Source: Opitutia bacterium
GTDB taxonomy: Bacteria; Verrucomicrobiota; Verrucomicrobiia; Opitutales; Opitutaceae
Length of the DNA stretch: 64,000 nucleotides
Assembly (NCBI GenBank): GCA_947472765.1
Contig: CANJCM010000016.1
Location: 1-64,000, forward strand
Direction: 5' to 3'
Position numbers and translations under genes: made by a program. Positions 23,879 through 38,856 of this stretch are shown here, piece after piece (the stretch's first letter is position 1; every line of letters starts with the position of its first letter). The notes beneath the pieces were generated by a model. The model ran no database searches and had not been told where the DNA came from. It saw only the letters and a list, made by a program, of their open reading frames with translations.

Positions 23879-24001
23879 CCGGAGGACGGAACCCGGAGGA
23901 TGGAGCGCCGAGGCCGGAGGACAGAGGGCGGACGGCGGAGGGCGGAGGGCGGAGGCCGCCATTGTGAAATTCTCGCGTCCCGGCGTCCCACAAGAAGTCC
24001 C

Positions 24002-26740: not shown

Positions 26741-26749
26741 AAGATTTTT

Positions 26750-26774
26750 GATTTTGGATTCTCGATTTTCGATT
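26750..26774 (+). repeat. 25-bp AT-rich direct repeat (family R11)
   Basis: Identical over 25 bp to 36691-36715. Both copies are on the same strand and start about 10 bp after a stop codon (FGGY kinase here, livF there). T-rich with GATTTT and CGATTTT words. The rest of the gap 26741-27095 holds CGCAGAGGGCGCAGAGG (about 26861), a GGACAGGATGGGCAGGATG word (about 26910) and the R1 element. Confidence 0.75.
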
Positions 26775-26951
26775 TCGTGTCGGCGGGGTCTGCAAGTGTC
26801 CCATCGTGGCGGCGAGCGTAAGCGAGTGGTGGATCGCCGTGGGGTGATCGATCGGGAACGCAGAGGGCGCAGAGGTTAAGAGAGGACGCAGAGCTCGGTC
26901 TGGATTTGGACAGGATGGGCAGGATGCCGGGACCAGCGCACGGTCCTCGGT

Positions 26952-31351: not shown

Positions 31352-31478
31352 GGGAATGCGCTGCGCGCATTCCCAACTTCGACGGGGACCGCAGATAGAG
31401 GGACGTGGCTTGGGTCCCCTCTCGAGAGGGGTGCCCGCCGGGCGGGGTGTGTCGGGGAATGCGCAACGCGCATTCCCC
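31352..31478. repeat. Hairpin cluster in the lptF/G-livK divergent gap
   Basis: GGGAATGCG-CTGCG-CGCATTCCC (31352-31374), CCCCTCTC-GAGAGGGG (31416-31431, R7 type) followed by GTGCCCGCCGGGCGGGG, and GGGGAATGCG-CAACG-CGCATTCCCC (31454-31478). The first and third are the same hairpin family. They take up most of the DNA where both genes' promoters should be. Confidence 0.75.
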
Positions 31479-31545
31479 TTCCTTGGGGGTTGAAAACACG
31501 GGGCGGCCTTTGTTCTCTCGCCCGGTTCAGGCCACCTTCCTCCCC

Positions 31546-32709
31546 ATGATGCATAAGCTTTCCCGGCGCTCTGTTCTTGCCCTCCTCGCGGTCTGCTCGC
31601 TCGGCCTCGGCTCGTGTTCGAAGCCGGCCGCCCCGGCCGGTTCGGCGGGCGACACGATCAAGGTCGGCGAATTCGCCTCGCTCACCGGCAAGGAAGCCGC
31701 GTTCGGCCAGTCATCGCACAAGGGCACGGTGCTCGCGATCGAGGAACTCAACGCCGCCGGCGGCGTGCTTGGGCGCAAGCTCGAGCTCGTGTCCGAGGAC
31801 AACCAGTCCAAGCCCGGCGAATCCGCGACGATCGTGAAGAAGCTCATTTCCCGCGACAAGGTCGTCGCCCTCCTCGGCGAGGTCGCCTCCAGCCGCTCGC
31901 TCGAGGCCGCGCCGATTTGCCAGGCCGCGCGCATCCCGATGATTTCGCCGTCCTCGACCAACCCGGCGGTAACGGAGACCGGCGACTACATCTTCCGCGT
32001 CTGCTTCATCGATCCGTTCCAAGGCGTCGTCATGGCCAAGTTCGCCAAGGACACGCTCAAGATCCGCAAGGTCGCGGTGCTCACGTCGGTGTCGTCGGCC
32101 TACAGCGTCGGCCTCGCGAAATACTTCACCGAGCGGTTCGCCAAGGACGGCGGAACGATCGCGCTCGAGCAGAAATATTCCGAGGGCGACAAGGACTTCA
32201 AAGCTCAGCTCACCGCGATCAAGGCCGCGGGCGTCGAAGGTATTTTCGTGCCGGGCTACTACACCGAGGCCGCACTGATCTGCAAACAGGCGCGCGACCT
32301 CGGGCTGAACATTCCGCTCTTCGGCGGCGACGGCTGGGAAGCGCCGCAGCTCATCGAGATCGGCGGCGCGGCGGTCGAGGGCTGCTACTACTCGACGCAT
32401 TACTCGCCTGAGAACCAGAGCCCGGCGGTCACAAATTTCGTCCAGAAGTTCAAGCAGCGCTGGAACGGCGAAACGCCGGACGCGATGGCGGCCCTCGCCT
32501 ACGATTCCGCCTCCGTGCTCGCCGATGCGATCAAGCGTGCCGGCTCGACGGAAGGCGCGAAGGTTCGCGCGGCCCTCGCCGCGACGAAGGATTTCGCCGC
32601 GGTCTCCGGCAACACCACCCTCGACGCCCAGCGCAACGCCACCAAGTCCGCCGTCGTCGTGACGATCAAGGGCGGCGCGTTCAAGTTCGTCGAGACGGTG
32701 GCGCCGTAA
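31546..32709 (+). CDS. livK: Branched-chain amino-acid ABC transporter, substrate-binding lipoprotein
   Basis: The solute receptor of a HAAT-family importer (Peripla_BP_6). It is 387 residues. ATGs at 31546 and 31549 both give a lipoprotein signal MHKLSRRSVLALLAVCSLGLGSC with lipobox GLGSC. The mature protein starts with DTIKVGEFASLTGKEAAFGQSSHKG, the family's ligand-cleft strand. It continues with GGVLGRKLELVSEDNQSKP, VVALLGEVASSRSLEAAPICQAARIPMISPSSTNPAVTE, and VEGIFVPGYYTEAALICKQARDLGLNIPLFGGDGW. It is first of the liv operon: livH, livM, livG and livF follow on the same strand, but a 563-bp cassette with a foreign-looking ORF separates it from livH. The upstream promoter region is filled with hairpins. 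Confidence 0.92.
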   Translation: MMHKLSRRSVLALLAVCSLGLGSCSKPAAPAGSAGDTIKVGEFASLTGKEAAFGQSSHKGTVLAIEELNAAGGVLGRKLELVSEDNQSKPGESATIVKKLISRDKVVALLGEVASSRSLEAAPICQAARIPMISPSSTNPAVTETGDYIFRVCFIDPFQGVVMAKFAKDTLKIRKVAVLTSVSSAYSVGLAKYFTERFAKDGGTIALEQKYSEGDKDFKAQLTAIKAAGVEGIFVPGYYTEAALICKQARDLGLNIPLFGGDGWEAPQLIEIGGAAVEGCYYSTHYSPENQSPAVTNFVQKFKQRWNGETPDAMAALAYDSASVLADAIKRAGSTEGAKVRAALAATKDFAAVSGNTTLDAQRNATKSAVVVTIKGGAFKFVETVAP

Positions 32710-32711
32710 GG

Positions 32712-33274
32712 CTTAGTTGAGAGATGAGAGTTGAGGGTTGCTGGTAGTTGAGAGATGAGAGATGAGGGTTGAGAGAAGCAGCCAGACCCCGGTTTCCGGG
32801 GCAGGTCGGGATTGAGAGCCACCCTGCGGCGACTTTCTCTTGCGGCGTGTTCAACTTCGAAAGGCTCGAGGTTTGGCAGAAGGCCGTCGCGTTTGCAGGG
32901 CTCGTCTACGGGCGAACCCGGGCGTTTCCGGCCGAAGAACGTTTCGGACTTACCATCCAACTCCGGCGAGCGGCTACGTCGGTCGCGTCCAACATCGCCG
33001 AGGGTTCATCGCGATCCCCCGGGGACTTCGCCAAGTTTCTCGGGTACGCATCCGGCTCCCTCTATGAAGTGGTCACCCAGATGAAAATTGCCCACCACGA
33101 GGACTTTCTCGCCAAGGCAGATTACGACCACATGTATGGACAAGCGGAGGAAATCAGCCGAATGCTCAGCGGCTTGCGGAAATCGCTGCGCCCTTAAAGG
33201 CTCTGACACCTCGACTTTCAGCTGACGGCATAAGGAGTTCGCTCTCAACCCTCAGCTCTCAACTCTCAACTAAG
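32712..33274 (+). mobile_element. Putative IVS-like cassette with terminal inverted repeats
   Basis: Bounded by 29-nt inverted repeats (32712-32740 and 33246-33274; 27 of 29 positions complementary) made of AGTTGAGAG-type units, with further partial copies inside (32746-32775) and outside (33275-33291). It carries one ORF for a four-helix-bundle protein. It begins 2 bp after the livK stop codon and ends 18 bp before the livH start. A solo copy of the right end lies at 38821-38856, before htpG. There is no transposase or obvious target-site duplication. Designation as mobile is inference. Confidence 0.6.
32847..33197 (+). CDS. Four-helix-bundle protein (S23/IVS-encoded family, TIGR02436)
   Basis: A 116-residue protein of the family encoded by intervening sequences of bacterial 23S rRNA (S23, PF05635) and related to Avd of diversity-generating retroelements. 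The GTG at 32847 starts VFNFERLEVWQKAVAF, matching the family's FxxLxVWQKA beginning; a start at 32769 would translate repeat DNA. Other marks are FPAEERFGLTIQLRRAATSVASNIAEGSSR (the IxRAxxSIxxNIAEG motif), FLGYASGSLYEVVTQMKIAH, and the C-terminal helix EEISRMLSGLRKSL. Members form pentameric barrels that can bind nucleic acid. It lies between livK and livH on the same strand inside inverted repeats, with no retroelement reverse transcriptase nearby. Confidence 0.88.
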   Translation: MFNFERLEVWQKAVAFAGLVYGRTRAFPAEERFGLTIQLRRAATSVASNIAEGSSRSPGDFAKFLGYASGSLYEVVTQMKIAHHEDFLAKADYDHMYGQAEEISRMLSGLRKSLRP

Positions 33275-33292
33275 CTCAACTCTCAACTAAGA

Positions 33293-34183
33293 TTGTCCGA
33301 ATTCCTCCAGCAGCTCCTTAACGGCCTTTCCCTCGGTGCCATCTATGCGCTCATCGCGCTGGGTTACACGATGGTCTACGGCGTGCTGCGGTTCATCAAT
33401 TTCGCGCACGCGGATGTCTTCATGGTGGGTTCGTTCATCGGCTACTATGTCGGACAGCGCCTCCCCCCCGGCACGATTTGGGGCGGGCTCATTGTCCTCG
33501 CGGTGTCGATGGCGGGATGCGCGATGCTCGGCATGCTGATCGAGCGGCTCGCCTACCGGCGGCTGCGGGGCGGTCCCACTCTCAATGTCCTAATCACGGC
33601 CATCGGCGTTTCGCTGCTGCTGGAATATTCGGGCCAGGTCTTCTTCGGCGCCGCGCCGCGCACCTTTCCGGCCGTGTTTCCCGTCCGCACTTTCCATCTC
33701 GGACCGGTCGTCGTCTCCACCAACCAGTTGATCGTGATCGTGGTGGCGGTGCTGCTGATGCTCGCGCTCGAATTTGTCGTCTATCGGACAAAAATGGGCA
33801 CCGCGATGCGCGCCGTCTCGCTGAACCCGCGGGCCGCCCAGCTCGTCGGCATCAACAACGACATCGTGATCTCGTTCACGTTCGGGCTCGGCTCGGCCCT
33901 CGCCGCGGCCGGTGGCATTCTCTACGCGCTCAACTACCCGTCCATCGACCCCATGATGGGCGTCATGCCCGGGCTGAAGGCGTTCGTCGCGGCGATCCTT
34001 GGCGGCATCGGCAACATCCCGGGGGCGGCCCTTGGCGGACTGATTCTCGGCACGGTCGAGACCTTCGTCGGCGGCAGCCAGTGGTCGACCTACAAGGACG
34101 CGATCGCGTTCGCGATCCTCATCATCATCCTGCTCTTCCGGCCCGCCGGGCTGCTGGGCAAGTTCACGATCGAGAAGGTCTGA
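33293..34183 (+). CDS. livH: Branched-chain amino-acid ABC transporter permease LivH
   Basis: An inner-membrane permease of the HAAT importer, 296 residues with about eight helices, the usual size. It begins at a TTG (33293) just after repeat DNA; no ATG is suitably placed, and LQQLLNGLSLGAIYALIALGYTMVYGVL is the normal family N-terminus. Family marks: FINFAHADVFMVGSFIGYY near residue 32 and the conserved cytoplasmic loop GTAMRAVSLNPRAAQLVGINNDIVISFTFGLGSALAAAGGILYAL, then GLKAFVAAILGGIGNIPGAALGGLILG. No Shine-Dalgarno sequence precedes the TTG because the cassette repeat (ACTCTCAACTAAG) abuts it. The insertion may have removed the native site. Confidence 0.92.
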   Translation: MSEFLQQLLNGLSLGAIYALIALGYTMVYGVLRFINFAHADVFMVGSFIGYYVGQRLPPGTIWGGLIVLAVSMAGCAMLGMLIERLAYRRLRGGPTLNVLITAIGVSLLLEYSGQVFFGAAPRTFPAVFPVRTFHLGPVVVSTNQLIVIVVAVLLMLALEFVVYRTKMGTAMRAVSLNPRAAQLVGINNDIVISFTFGLGSALAAAGGILYALNYPSIDPMMGVMPGLKAFVAAILGGIGNIPGAALGGLILGTVETFVGGSQWSTYKDAIAFAILIIILLFRPAGLLGKFTIEKV

Positions 34184-35972: not shown

Positions 35973-36680
35973 ATGCTCCAGGTCAAAGATCTTCACGTGG
36001 CCTACGGCGCCATCGCCGCCTTGAGCGGGATTTCATTCGAAATTCCGCGTGGCGCGATCGTCACACTGATCGGCGGCAACGGCGCCGGCAAGACCACGAC
36101 CCTGCGCGCGATCTCCGGCCTGATCCGGGCGCGTTCCGGCAGCGTCAATTTCCTCGGCGAGGACATCACCGCCCTGCCCGCGCATCAGATCGTGGCCCGC
36201 GGACTGTGTCATGTGCCCGAAGGTCGGATGATTTTCTCCAACCTCACCGTGGACGAGAACCTCGTGATGGGAGCGTACCTCCAGCGCGACCACGCGTTGA
36301 ACGCGAAGAATCGCGAGTACGTCTTCAGTATTTTCCCGCGCCTCAAGGAACGCCTGCGCCAGTCGGCCGGCACGCTCTCCGGCGGCGAACAGCAGATGCT
36401 CGCGATCGGTCGCGCGCTGATGGGCAACCCGAAGTTCCTCATGCTGGATGAGCCGTCCCTCGGGATCGCGCCACGGCTGATCACGACCATCTTCGAGAAG
36501 ATCGTGGAGATTAACCGCGATCAAGGGATCACGATTCTCCTCGTCGAACAGAACGCCAATCTCGCCCTCGAAGTCTCGACCTCGGCCTACGTGCTCGAAA
36601 CCGGCCGGATCGTGATGTCCGGCGACAGCCAGAAGCTTCGGGCCGATCCCCAGCTCAAGGCGACGTACCTCGGCGGGTGA
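35973..36680 (+). CDS. livF: Branched-chain amino-acid ABC transporter ATPase LivF
   Basis: The second ATPase of the transporter, 235 residues, exactly the family size. Walker A is GGNGAGKTTT, the Q-loop region is GLCHVPEGRMIFSNLTVDENL, the signature is LSGGEQQMLAIGRAL, Walker B is FLMLDEPSLGIAP, and the H-loop is ILLVEQNANLALE (Gln in place of His at the switch position, usual for LivF). The start is 3 bp after livG's stop codon. It is last in the operon and is followed by 472 bp without a gene. Forms a heterodimer with LivG. Confidence 0.95.
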   Translation: MLQVKDLHVAYGAIAALSGISFEIPRGAIVTLIGGNGAGKTTTLRAISGLIRARSGSVNFLGEDITALPAHQIVARGLCHVPEGRMIFSNLTVDENLVMGAYLQRDHALNAKNREYVFSIFPRLKERLRQSAGTLSGGEQQMLAIGRALMGNPKFLMLDEPSLGIAPRLITTIFEKIVEINRDQGITILLVEQNANLALEVSTSAYVLETGRIVMSGDSQKLRADPQLKATYLGG

Positions 36681-36690
36681 GTGGATTTTC

Positions 36691-36715
36691 GATTTTGGAT
36701 TCTCGATTTTCGATT
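36691..36715 (+). repeat. 25-bp AT-rich direct repeat (family R11)
   Basis: Identical to 26750-26774, again about 10 bp after a stop codon on the same strand. The rest of the 36681-37152 gap has AAGCCAGGAAAGCCGG (about 36900) and its near-complement ATTCCTGGCTTC (about 36995), a CTCTGCGCCCTCCGCG word (about 37047), and no gene. Confidence 0.75.
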
Positions 36716-38820: not shown

Positions 38821-38856
38821 CATCTCTCAACTCTCAGCCCTCAACTCTCAACTCAG
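38821..38856. repeat. Solo copy of the liv-cassette end repeat
   Basis: CATCTCTCAACTCTCAGCCC followed by TCAACTCTCAACTCAG. It matches the right terminal repeat of the 32712-33274 cassette, in the same orientation, and ends 14 bp before the htpG start. There is no ORF with it. Confidence 0.7.

Follow-up and report, generated by a model that had tools for sequence, protein, structure and literature searches.

The S23 cassette between livK and livH

In the 64-kb stretch of DNA analysed here (the window), livK and livH are separated by a cassette consisting of a single gene for a four-helix-bundle protein of the S23/TIGR02436 family and, on both sides of it, arrays of the heptamer GTTGAGA in inverted orientation (Table 1). 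The left outer arm and the right arm at 33246-33275 are 93% complementary over 30 nt in the repeat search, in agreement with the 29-nt inverted ends, 27 of 29 positions paired, that a first-pass annotation had described; those 29 nt correspond to about four heptamers. The left inner arm can pair with the right arm as well, over 47 nt at 85% (inverted repeat I1). On the left side the forward array spans 32717-32776 and the period-7 segment 32715-32773, and on the right side the period-7 segment covers 33244-33271. The annotation had delimited a unit of 563 bp, and the unit as such stands, but its borders are nearer 32711-33291 because further heptamer copies are present at 32745-32771 and 33275-33291. 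The spacings given for it, 2 bp from the livK stop codon and 18 bp to the livH TTG, hold, and its right-end repeat indeed also occurs alone elsewhere, as the last entry of Table 1.

Table 1. Features at and near the livK-livH junction (positions in the window).
Feature	Position	Strand	Basis or remark
livK-like periplasmic binding protein, upstream neighbour	31405-32709	+	Pfam PF13458 8.7e-71; stop TAA 32707-32709
Left outer arm, imperfect GTTGAGA heptamer array	32711-32740	+	Inverted repeat I4, 30 nt
Left inner arm, second array copy	32745-32776	+	Direct repeat D2, 96%
S23/TIGR02436 four-helix-bundle gene	32847-33197	+	Likely start GTG, 116 aa
Right arm, GTTGAGA array	33242-33275	-	Repeat search, array and period-7 scans
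Extra right-end copy, 17 nt	33275-33291	-	Direct repeat D1, identical to 33258-33274
livH, downstream neighbour	33293-34183	+	PF02653 5.5e-46; TTG start directly after cassette
Solo four-heptamer array, GTTGAGA family	38821-38854	-	Pattern match and period-7 scan

The GTG start of the S23 gene yields the N-terminus (M)FNFERLEVWQ that is typical of the family by family comparison; an alternative longer frame is possible from TTG 32769, a codon that falls inside the left array. The ends of the cassette pair in the minimum-energy RNA fold (calculated without a shuffle control), and the layout first proposed for it, a long potential stem whose loop contains an S23 ORF, as in the intervening sequences (IVSs) of 23S rRNA, is supported. 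The cassette does not lie inside a 23S rRNA gene, and the search for Rfam elements, self-splicing introns included, gave no match at gathering scores within the window. The cassette had also been said to leave livH without a Shine-Dalgarno sequence. As livH likewise lacks a clear one, judged by eye, in relatives with short gaps and no cassette, its absence cannot be put down to the cassette on this evidence, and that explanation was rejected. Arrays of other words are found in the window too. Four-heptamer arrays of GATTTTC, a word not seen at any examined S23 locus of this genome, lie at 26743-26775 and at 36684-36715, the latter beginning 4 nt downstream of an ORF that ends at 36680, and a GGAGGGC-like period-7 array lies at 23910-23958.

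The S23 protein

The S23 ORF scores above the curated cut-offs (S23/TIGR02436/PF05635), with 111.8 bits against 24 and 114.5 against 33.8 (PF05635 at 3.3e-33), which upholds its earlier assignment to the family. PF05635 is the sole Pfam domain found in it, and no Y1 transposase (RAYT) was found between the repeats. The AlphaFold2 model of 32838-33194 is a confident four-helix bundle (pLDDT 95.9) that matches XCC0516 (chain 2gsc) with a TM score of 0.92, BT_0352 with 0.77-0.79, and Avd (4dwl, 8ub7; also inside complexes of diversity-generating retroelements) with 0.76-0.81 at a Foldseek E of at least 0.05. The S23 protein family and the 23S IVS elements are known already, and the structure 2gsc has been public since 2006; to our knowledge no catalytic domain has been recognized in S23. 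In the available text of one study the family is without known function and S23p of X. campestris is a homopentameric toroid (PMC4990558). By analogy with the homologue XCC0516, the S23 protein of the window is expected to assemble its four-helix bundles into a five-fold ring, and S23 is probably a ring-forming nucleic-acid binder. The S23 genes at liv sites are under purifying selection, with a median pN/pS of 0.38 over 78 pairs.

Inverted heptamer arrays beside S23 genes in many phyla

Inverted heptamer arrays are found beside S23 genes in many phyla. Within the GTDB family of the window, a period-7 segment scoring at least 14 is present within 400 nt at 32 of 74 S23 loci, as compared to 0/74 distal windows and 0-1/74 loci at each of the other periods from 4 to 12. 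Of these 74 loci, 5 come from the own genome, the tool selected 30, and 39 were picked from the best-scoring matches listed; L100, a duplicate of L066, and the weak match L006 were left out. In a second set, formed by the best 80 of 580 confirmed hits among the matches listed and drawn from Pseudomonadota, Bacteroidota, Planctomycetota, Nitrospirota, Chloroflexota, Acidobacteriota, candidate phyla and others, a period-7 score of at least 11 is reached at 54/80 loci versus 12/80 distal windows, and other periods reach it at 13/80 loci at most (period 8). A scan of IMG/VR gave one S23 locus.

Upstream and downstream flanks of the same gene pair with each other. Among 151 loci, which are best-scoring hits and not a random sample (3 of 154 with flanks shorter than 120 nt were left out), the inverted pairing score is at least 12 for 111 cognate pairs, in contrast to 27 of 906 mismatched pairs, 23 of 151 pairs in direct orientation, and 2 of 140 control ORFs of like size at the same loci. 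Both arms of one cassette largely agree in their word, at 5.79 of 7 positions compared to 3.89 for random pairs (67 loci). The upstream arm contains more G than C in 68 of 73 arrays, and these arrays end at a median of 38 nt before the start of the HMM match, near the start codon. No array at a score of at least 11 was detected at 50 of the 154 loci.

Dispersed arrays in the genome of the window

The word of the cassette is dispersed over its own genome (G000), in which exact TCAACTCTCAACT occurs 55 times, compared to about 0.15 matches expected at even base use. The reversed control is uninformative here, TCAACTCTCAACT being the same backwards and GTTGAGA and GTTGAAA giving the same arrays in another phase; in one further 15-mer scan the reversed control gave 1 match in all. 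Of the six S23 matches above the cut-off in this genome, one is weak and the other five are strong, at E 5e-19 or better. Inverted period-7 flanks accompany each of the strong genes, with a different heptamer in every case, and these heptamers recur elsewhere in the genome. One scan of these flanks took the orientation of the contig as that of the gene, which leaves the pairing unaffected. The weak TIGR02436 match (L006, G000:C11:74597-74797; 27.8 bits, in a frame of 232 aa) has no heptamer arrays. Three consecutive copies of the pattern GAGTNNN match 56 times, including the words of the own S23 flanks (GAGTTTG, GAGTTAA, GAGTGGC, GAGTCAG, and GAGTTGA); as the reversed pattern matches 191 times, it is the identity of the words that matters and not the number of GAGTNNN matches. 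Most, not all, of the heptamer families in this genome could be matched to an S23 gene, and GAGTTCT and GAGTAGC are seen without one. The end repeats of the cassette are not rare; the genome contains several heptamer families, of which they represent one.

The commonest array span, 28 nt or four heptamers, accounts for 34 of 62 arrays in the own genome and the G003 loci taken together. In the same material, opposite-strand arrays less than 600 nt apart have the same order in 10 of 10 pairs, two of which are S23 cassettes. By crude gene calls, solo arrays are mostly intergenic (20/24 in the own genome, 14/24 in G003), and both neighbours are antisense to the intergenic array in 9/14 cases in G003; in the own genome solo arrays have no fixed orientation relative to the neighbouring genes. 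Arrays overlapping ORFs of the crude caller are always antisense to them because the GTTGAGA strand has TGA stops in every frame.

Agreement between S23 proteins and their heptamers

Close S23 relatives share their word. In the comparison of protein and heptamer, which is based on the 104 loci (out of 154) that show a clear array, proteins with an identity of at least 0.8 have 6.75 of 7 heptamer positions in common (40 pairs) and those with 0.7-0.8 have 6.06 of 7, and below 0.5 the agreement falls to 3.7-3.8, near the random value of 3.89; the Mantel correlation is 0.24 (p at most 0.001). For one locus, L002, the consensus routine gave the label ATGGGTG although its array is GTTGAGA. On the S23 tree, the GGAGTCA class (5/5) and the GTTGAAA class (6/6, support 0.285 only) group together, 9 members of the GTAGCGA class fall in a clade of 10, and AGTGGTT, CTGGGGG, and AGTTTGG are each common to two S23 proteins that are distant from each other. 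The neighbouring genes that the loci have in common place the GGAGTCA and TAAGC classes at one site each and the GTAGCGA class at three. Cassettes of one class being mostly at shared sites, much of the agreement between protein and heptamer is therefore due to common descent. Two facts go beyond descent, namely the five words within one genome and the word differences within the liv clade, which are accompanied by matching dispersed 15-mers.

As to the latter, the liv S23 cassettes belong to one clade, and both arms of each largely agree on GTTGAGA, GTTGAAA, or GAGCCCA. All seven carriers of a liv-type S23 with GTTGAGA (G097, with mixed units, counted among them) have more GTTGAGA than GTTGAAA 15-mers, and four of five GTTGAAA carriers have more GTTGAAA than GTTGAGA 15-mers, counts that include some of the cassettes' own arms. 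The exception is G096, whose gene has GTTGAAA, yet whose genome contains 7 GTTGAGA versus 2 GTTGAAA matches. GTTGAGA matches are also present in genomes without any S23 match (28 in G004, 7 in G062, and 6 in G065). For GTAGCGA, the exact 15-mer is missing from 4/12 carriers and present in 29/88 other genomes, carriers being those genomes whose S23 locus was read, so that hidden carriers may be among the others.

For X. campestris, 186 arrays of GGGAATC, mostly of four units and with 70 close pairs called convergent, are reported in the available text of PMC4692102. It was predicted beforehand that GGGAATC would flank S23 in Xanthomonas, and it was then found beside S23 in L138-L141 (three Xanthomonas and one Luteimonas). 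Doubled GGGAATC has 188, 86, 91, and 140 matches in these four genomes (overlaps counted) and 19 in Dokdonella, where the S23 word is GGGATTC; none is present in five further genomes with S23, and the reversed control gives 0 matches. Doubled AGTGGTT has 12 matches in three arrays in the genome of Thiohalocapsa, whose S23 uses this word, and none in nine other genomes; reversed AGTGGTT gives 23 matches, in three of the other genomes.

History of the liv sites

Of the 33 genomes that gave a match to livH, 30 were examined at the livK-livH region, and livK was found in 28. Twelve of these 28 relatives have an S23 gene in the gap between livK and livH, which then measures 440-583 nt and in each case contains a period-7 segment scoring at least 12. 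An S23 gene is missing in 15 relatives with gaps of -4 to 211 nt and in one with a gap of 480 nt, and none of the 14 scorable gaps without S23 has a period-7 segment scoring at least 12. The empty site that the first-pass annotation proposed to look for by livK-livH spacing is thus present in the 15 short-gap relatives; a one-off insertion is contradicted by the same S23 clade at livK-livH in many genera, with varying arm heptamer. Within the genus of the window, the cassette is present in G000 and in G054, each with another word, and absent from G006. One clade (0.999) unites the thirteen liv S23 genes fetched with L187, a cassette with GTTGAAA from a different MAG of the Verrucomicrobiia; the L187 locus ends 265 nt downstream and showed no livK or livH.

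The livH-livM junction varies as well. In G003 it contains an inverted array pair without S23 in a gap of 148 nt, compared to 10 nt in its congener G052, and in G054 a gap of 124 nt has GAGCT-type arms, compared to gaps of 1 and 18 nt in its congeners G000 and G006. Taken together, the filled and empty livK-livH sites and the variable livH-livM junction point to an S23 gene that is a long-term resident and to short units that come and go, and the livK-livH cassette itself is an old resident, with losses or gains. The correlation between S23 and LivH at livK-livH (Mantel r 0.12, p 0.18) was calculated over 10 genomes, has little power and does not serve as evidence of re-insertion. The livH-livM gaps of G043 and G031 contain inserts bounded by ACCACGGATTTCACGGATGAACACGGAT-like ends in inverted orientation, perhaps another dispersed repeat family. 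Between the livK stop codon and the left array, a short GC palindrome is present in G003, G052, G017, G023, G031, and G037 and was not seen in the window.

A proposed two-part system of S23 and heptamer arrays

In REPIN-RAYT systems, a vertically inherited gene maintains dispersed short repeats. We consider it fairly probable that the livK-livH cassette is the gene-bearing member of a system of this type, in which S23 takes the place of the transposase. The S23 ring would recognise a 7-nt word, GTTGAGA in this case, repeated about four times in a row, presumably reading the array as RNA or single-stranded DNA, and its binding sites would comprise the arms of the cassette together with the arrays, solo or paired, at other places in the genome. 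Such recognition could keep or spread the arrays, as RAYTs do for REPINs. Lineages of S23 would differ in their word, and the S23 gene would remain between the same two cistrons over long times, with short arrays and S23-free inverted pairs of the same word being gained and lost elsewhere. The polarity of the arms and their typical length fit a ring that reads a repeated word. Direct binding of the arrays, a role of S23 in copying or keeping them, and processing of a stem in the liv mRNA are all three steps that we infer. The likeness to REPIN-RAYT consists in a resident gene between inverted short repeats and in dispersed solo copies and paired hairpin copies; in contrast to RAYTs, the gene of the cassette encodes a four-helix bundle and not a Y1 transposase, and its repeats are tandem heptamers and not palindromes.

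The main rival is an RNA-level role of S23, be it autoregulation or stem processing, which may operate alongside the REPIN-RAYT-like system. S23 could, like TRAP, be a sequence-specific RNA-binding ring; it would recognise GAG-rich heptamer runs in mRNAs and regulate its own synthesis through the array before its start, with the dispersed intergenic arrays as its regulon and spreading passively. The position of the upstream arrays close to the start codon, the G-rich sense-side arms, the mostly intergenic solo arrays with their often antisense neighbours in G003, and the purifying selection on liv S23 genes all speak for such a regulator. However, solo arrays in the own genome have no fixed orientation to neighbouring genes, arrays are inverted at both ends of the gene, and sites that are short in congeners can contain inverted pairs lacking S23, observations suggestive of units that spread; as a replacement for the REPIN-RAYT-like system we consider the regulator unlikely. 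Somewhat less unlikely is an intervening sequence in which RNase III cuts the stem and frees the S23 mRNA from the liv transcript, a process that may also add to the REPIN-RAYT-like system. The cassette ends can pair in the RNA fold, and protein family and stem-loop layout are those of the 23S IVS of Coxiella (available text of PMC4990558), but the cassette lies outside rRNA, between livK and livH, and this reading would leave the dispersed copies of its word unexplained.

A retroelement, in which S23 would act like Avd together with a host reverse transcriptase to copy the arrays, is suggested by the fold match to Avd described above and is nevertheless very improbable. S23 of the cassette scores 19.5 bits with the Avd model, below its cut-off of 80, and no RVT_1 match was obtained in 11 of 16 S23 genomes searched, among them that of the window (G000, with no RVT_1 match in an assembly 95.9% complete) and the single-contig G003, G051, and G071, so that any mechanism requiring a host reverse transcriptase was discarded. 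That heptamer arrays are generic intergenic slippage repeats flanking S23 by chance is extremely improbable, even if they are widespread, occurring in some of the distal windows and in G004, G062, and G065, which are without S23 match. Cognate flanks pair far more often than mismatched flanks or those of control ORFs, on which ground chance or generic repeats were rejected as the main cause; period 7 stands alone in the family set, close pairs keep a fixed order, and more than half of the arrays measured span exactly 28 nt. The preferred explanation remains the REPIN-RAYT-like system.

Relation to known repeats

The IVS of the Coxiella 23S rRNA shares with the cassette the protein family and an ORF in the loop of paired ends. 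According to the available text of PMC4990558, RNase III was found to excise this IVS, and its ORF is preceded by two or three GACAGAT heptamers, which fits the pattern of the cassette; there the heptamers are treated as strain variation and the protein is suggested not to be made in vivo. In contrast to this IVS, the cassette is located in a protein operon, has arrays on both sides, and is accompanied by dispersed copies. Heptamer repeats described without a partner are further known as GGGGAYT in Nostoc (available text of PMC4692102) and as TAACTGA in Beggiatoaceae (available text of PMC4679880). Such orphan arrays are, as far as the available text goes, mostly intergenic, and those of Xanthomonas mostly have four units and form convergent close pairs, as here; the repeats are generally not associated with mobile elements (available text of PMC4692102). 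The main texts of PMC4692102 and PMC4679880 differ from the present case in making no mention of 'S23' or 'four helix', and our test of a link between S23 and published orphan heptamers covered Xanthomonas. No paper pairing S23 genes with their own heptamers was found among the listings examined in open-licence PubMed Central.

S23 lineages tied to their own heptamers provide a testable function both for the protein family and for repeats without a partner. As a broader proposal, which we regard as tentative and at somewhat less than an even chance, S23 proteins might constitute a bacteria-wide class of repeat-recognition rings, each lineage with its own word and about four words per site, that would drive the spread or upkeep of arrays, and one kind of system would embrace the repeats of Xanthomonas and perhaps also those known from Nostoc, Beggiatoaceae, and the Coxiella 23S IVS. 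If this is true, S23 would be the missing partner of the orphan heptamers and an evolvable, non-enzymatic nucleic-acid reader with a new kind of sequence recognition, and it would explain short repeats in intergenic DNA and at operon junctions of many phyla.

Arrays show a bias towards the leading strand of replication that is moderate in G003 (36/50) and strong in G004. We regard this bias as weak evidence since it is reported absent for the heptamer arrays of Xanthomonas (available text of PMC4692102) and since G004 is without S23 match. In G004, represented by a single contig of 4.7 Mb (G004:C1), 26 of 28 GTTGAGA matches lie on the G-rich strand according to a skew model with 20 sampled stretches.
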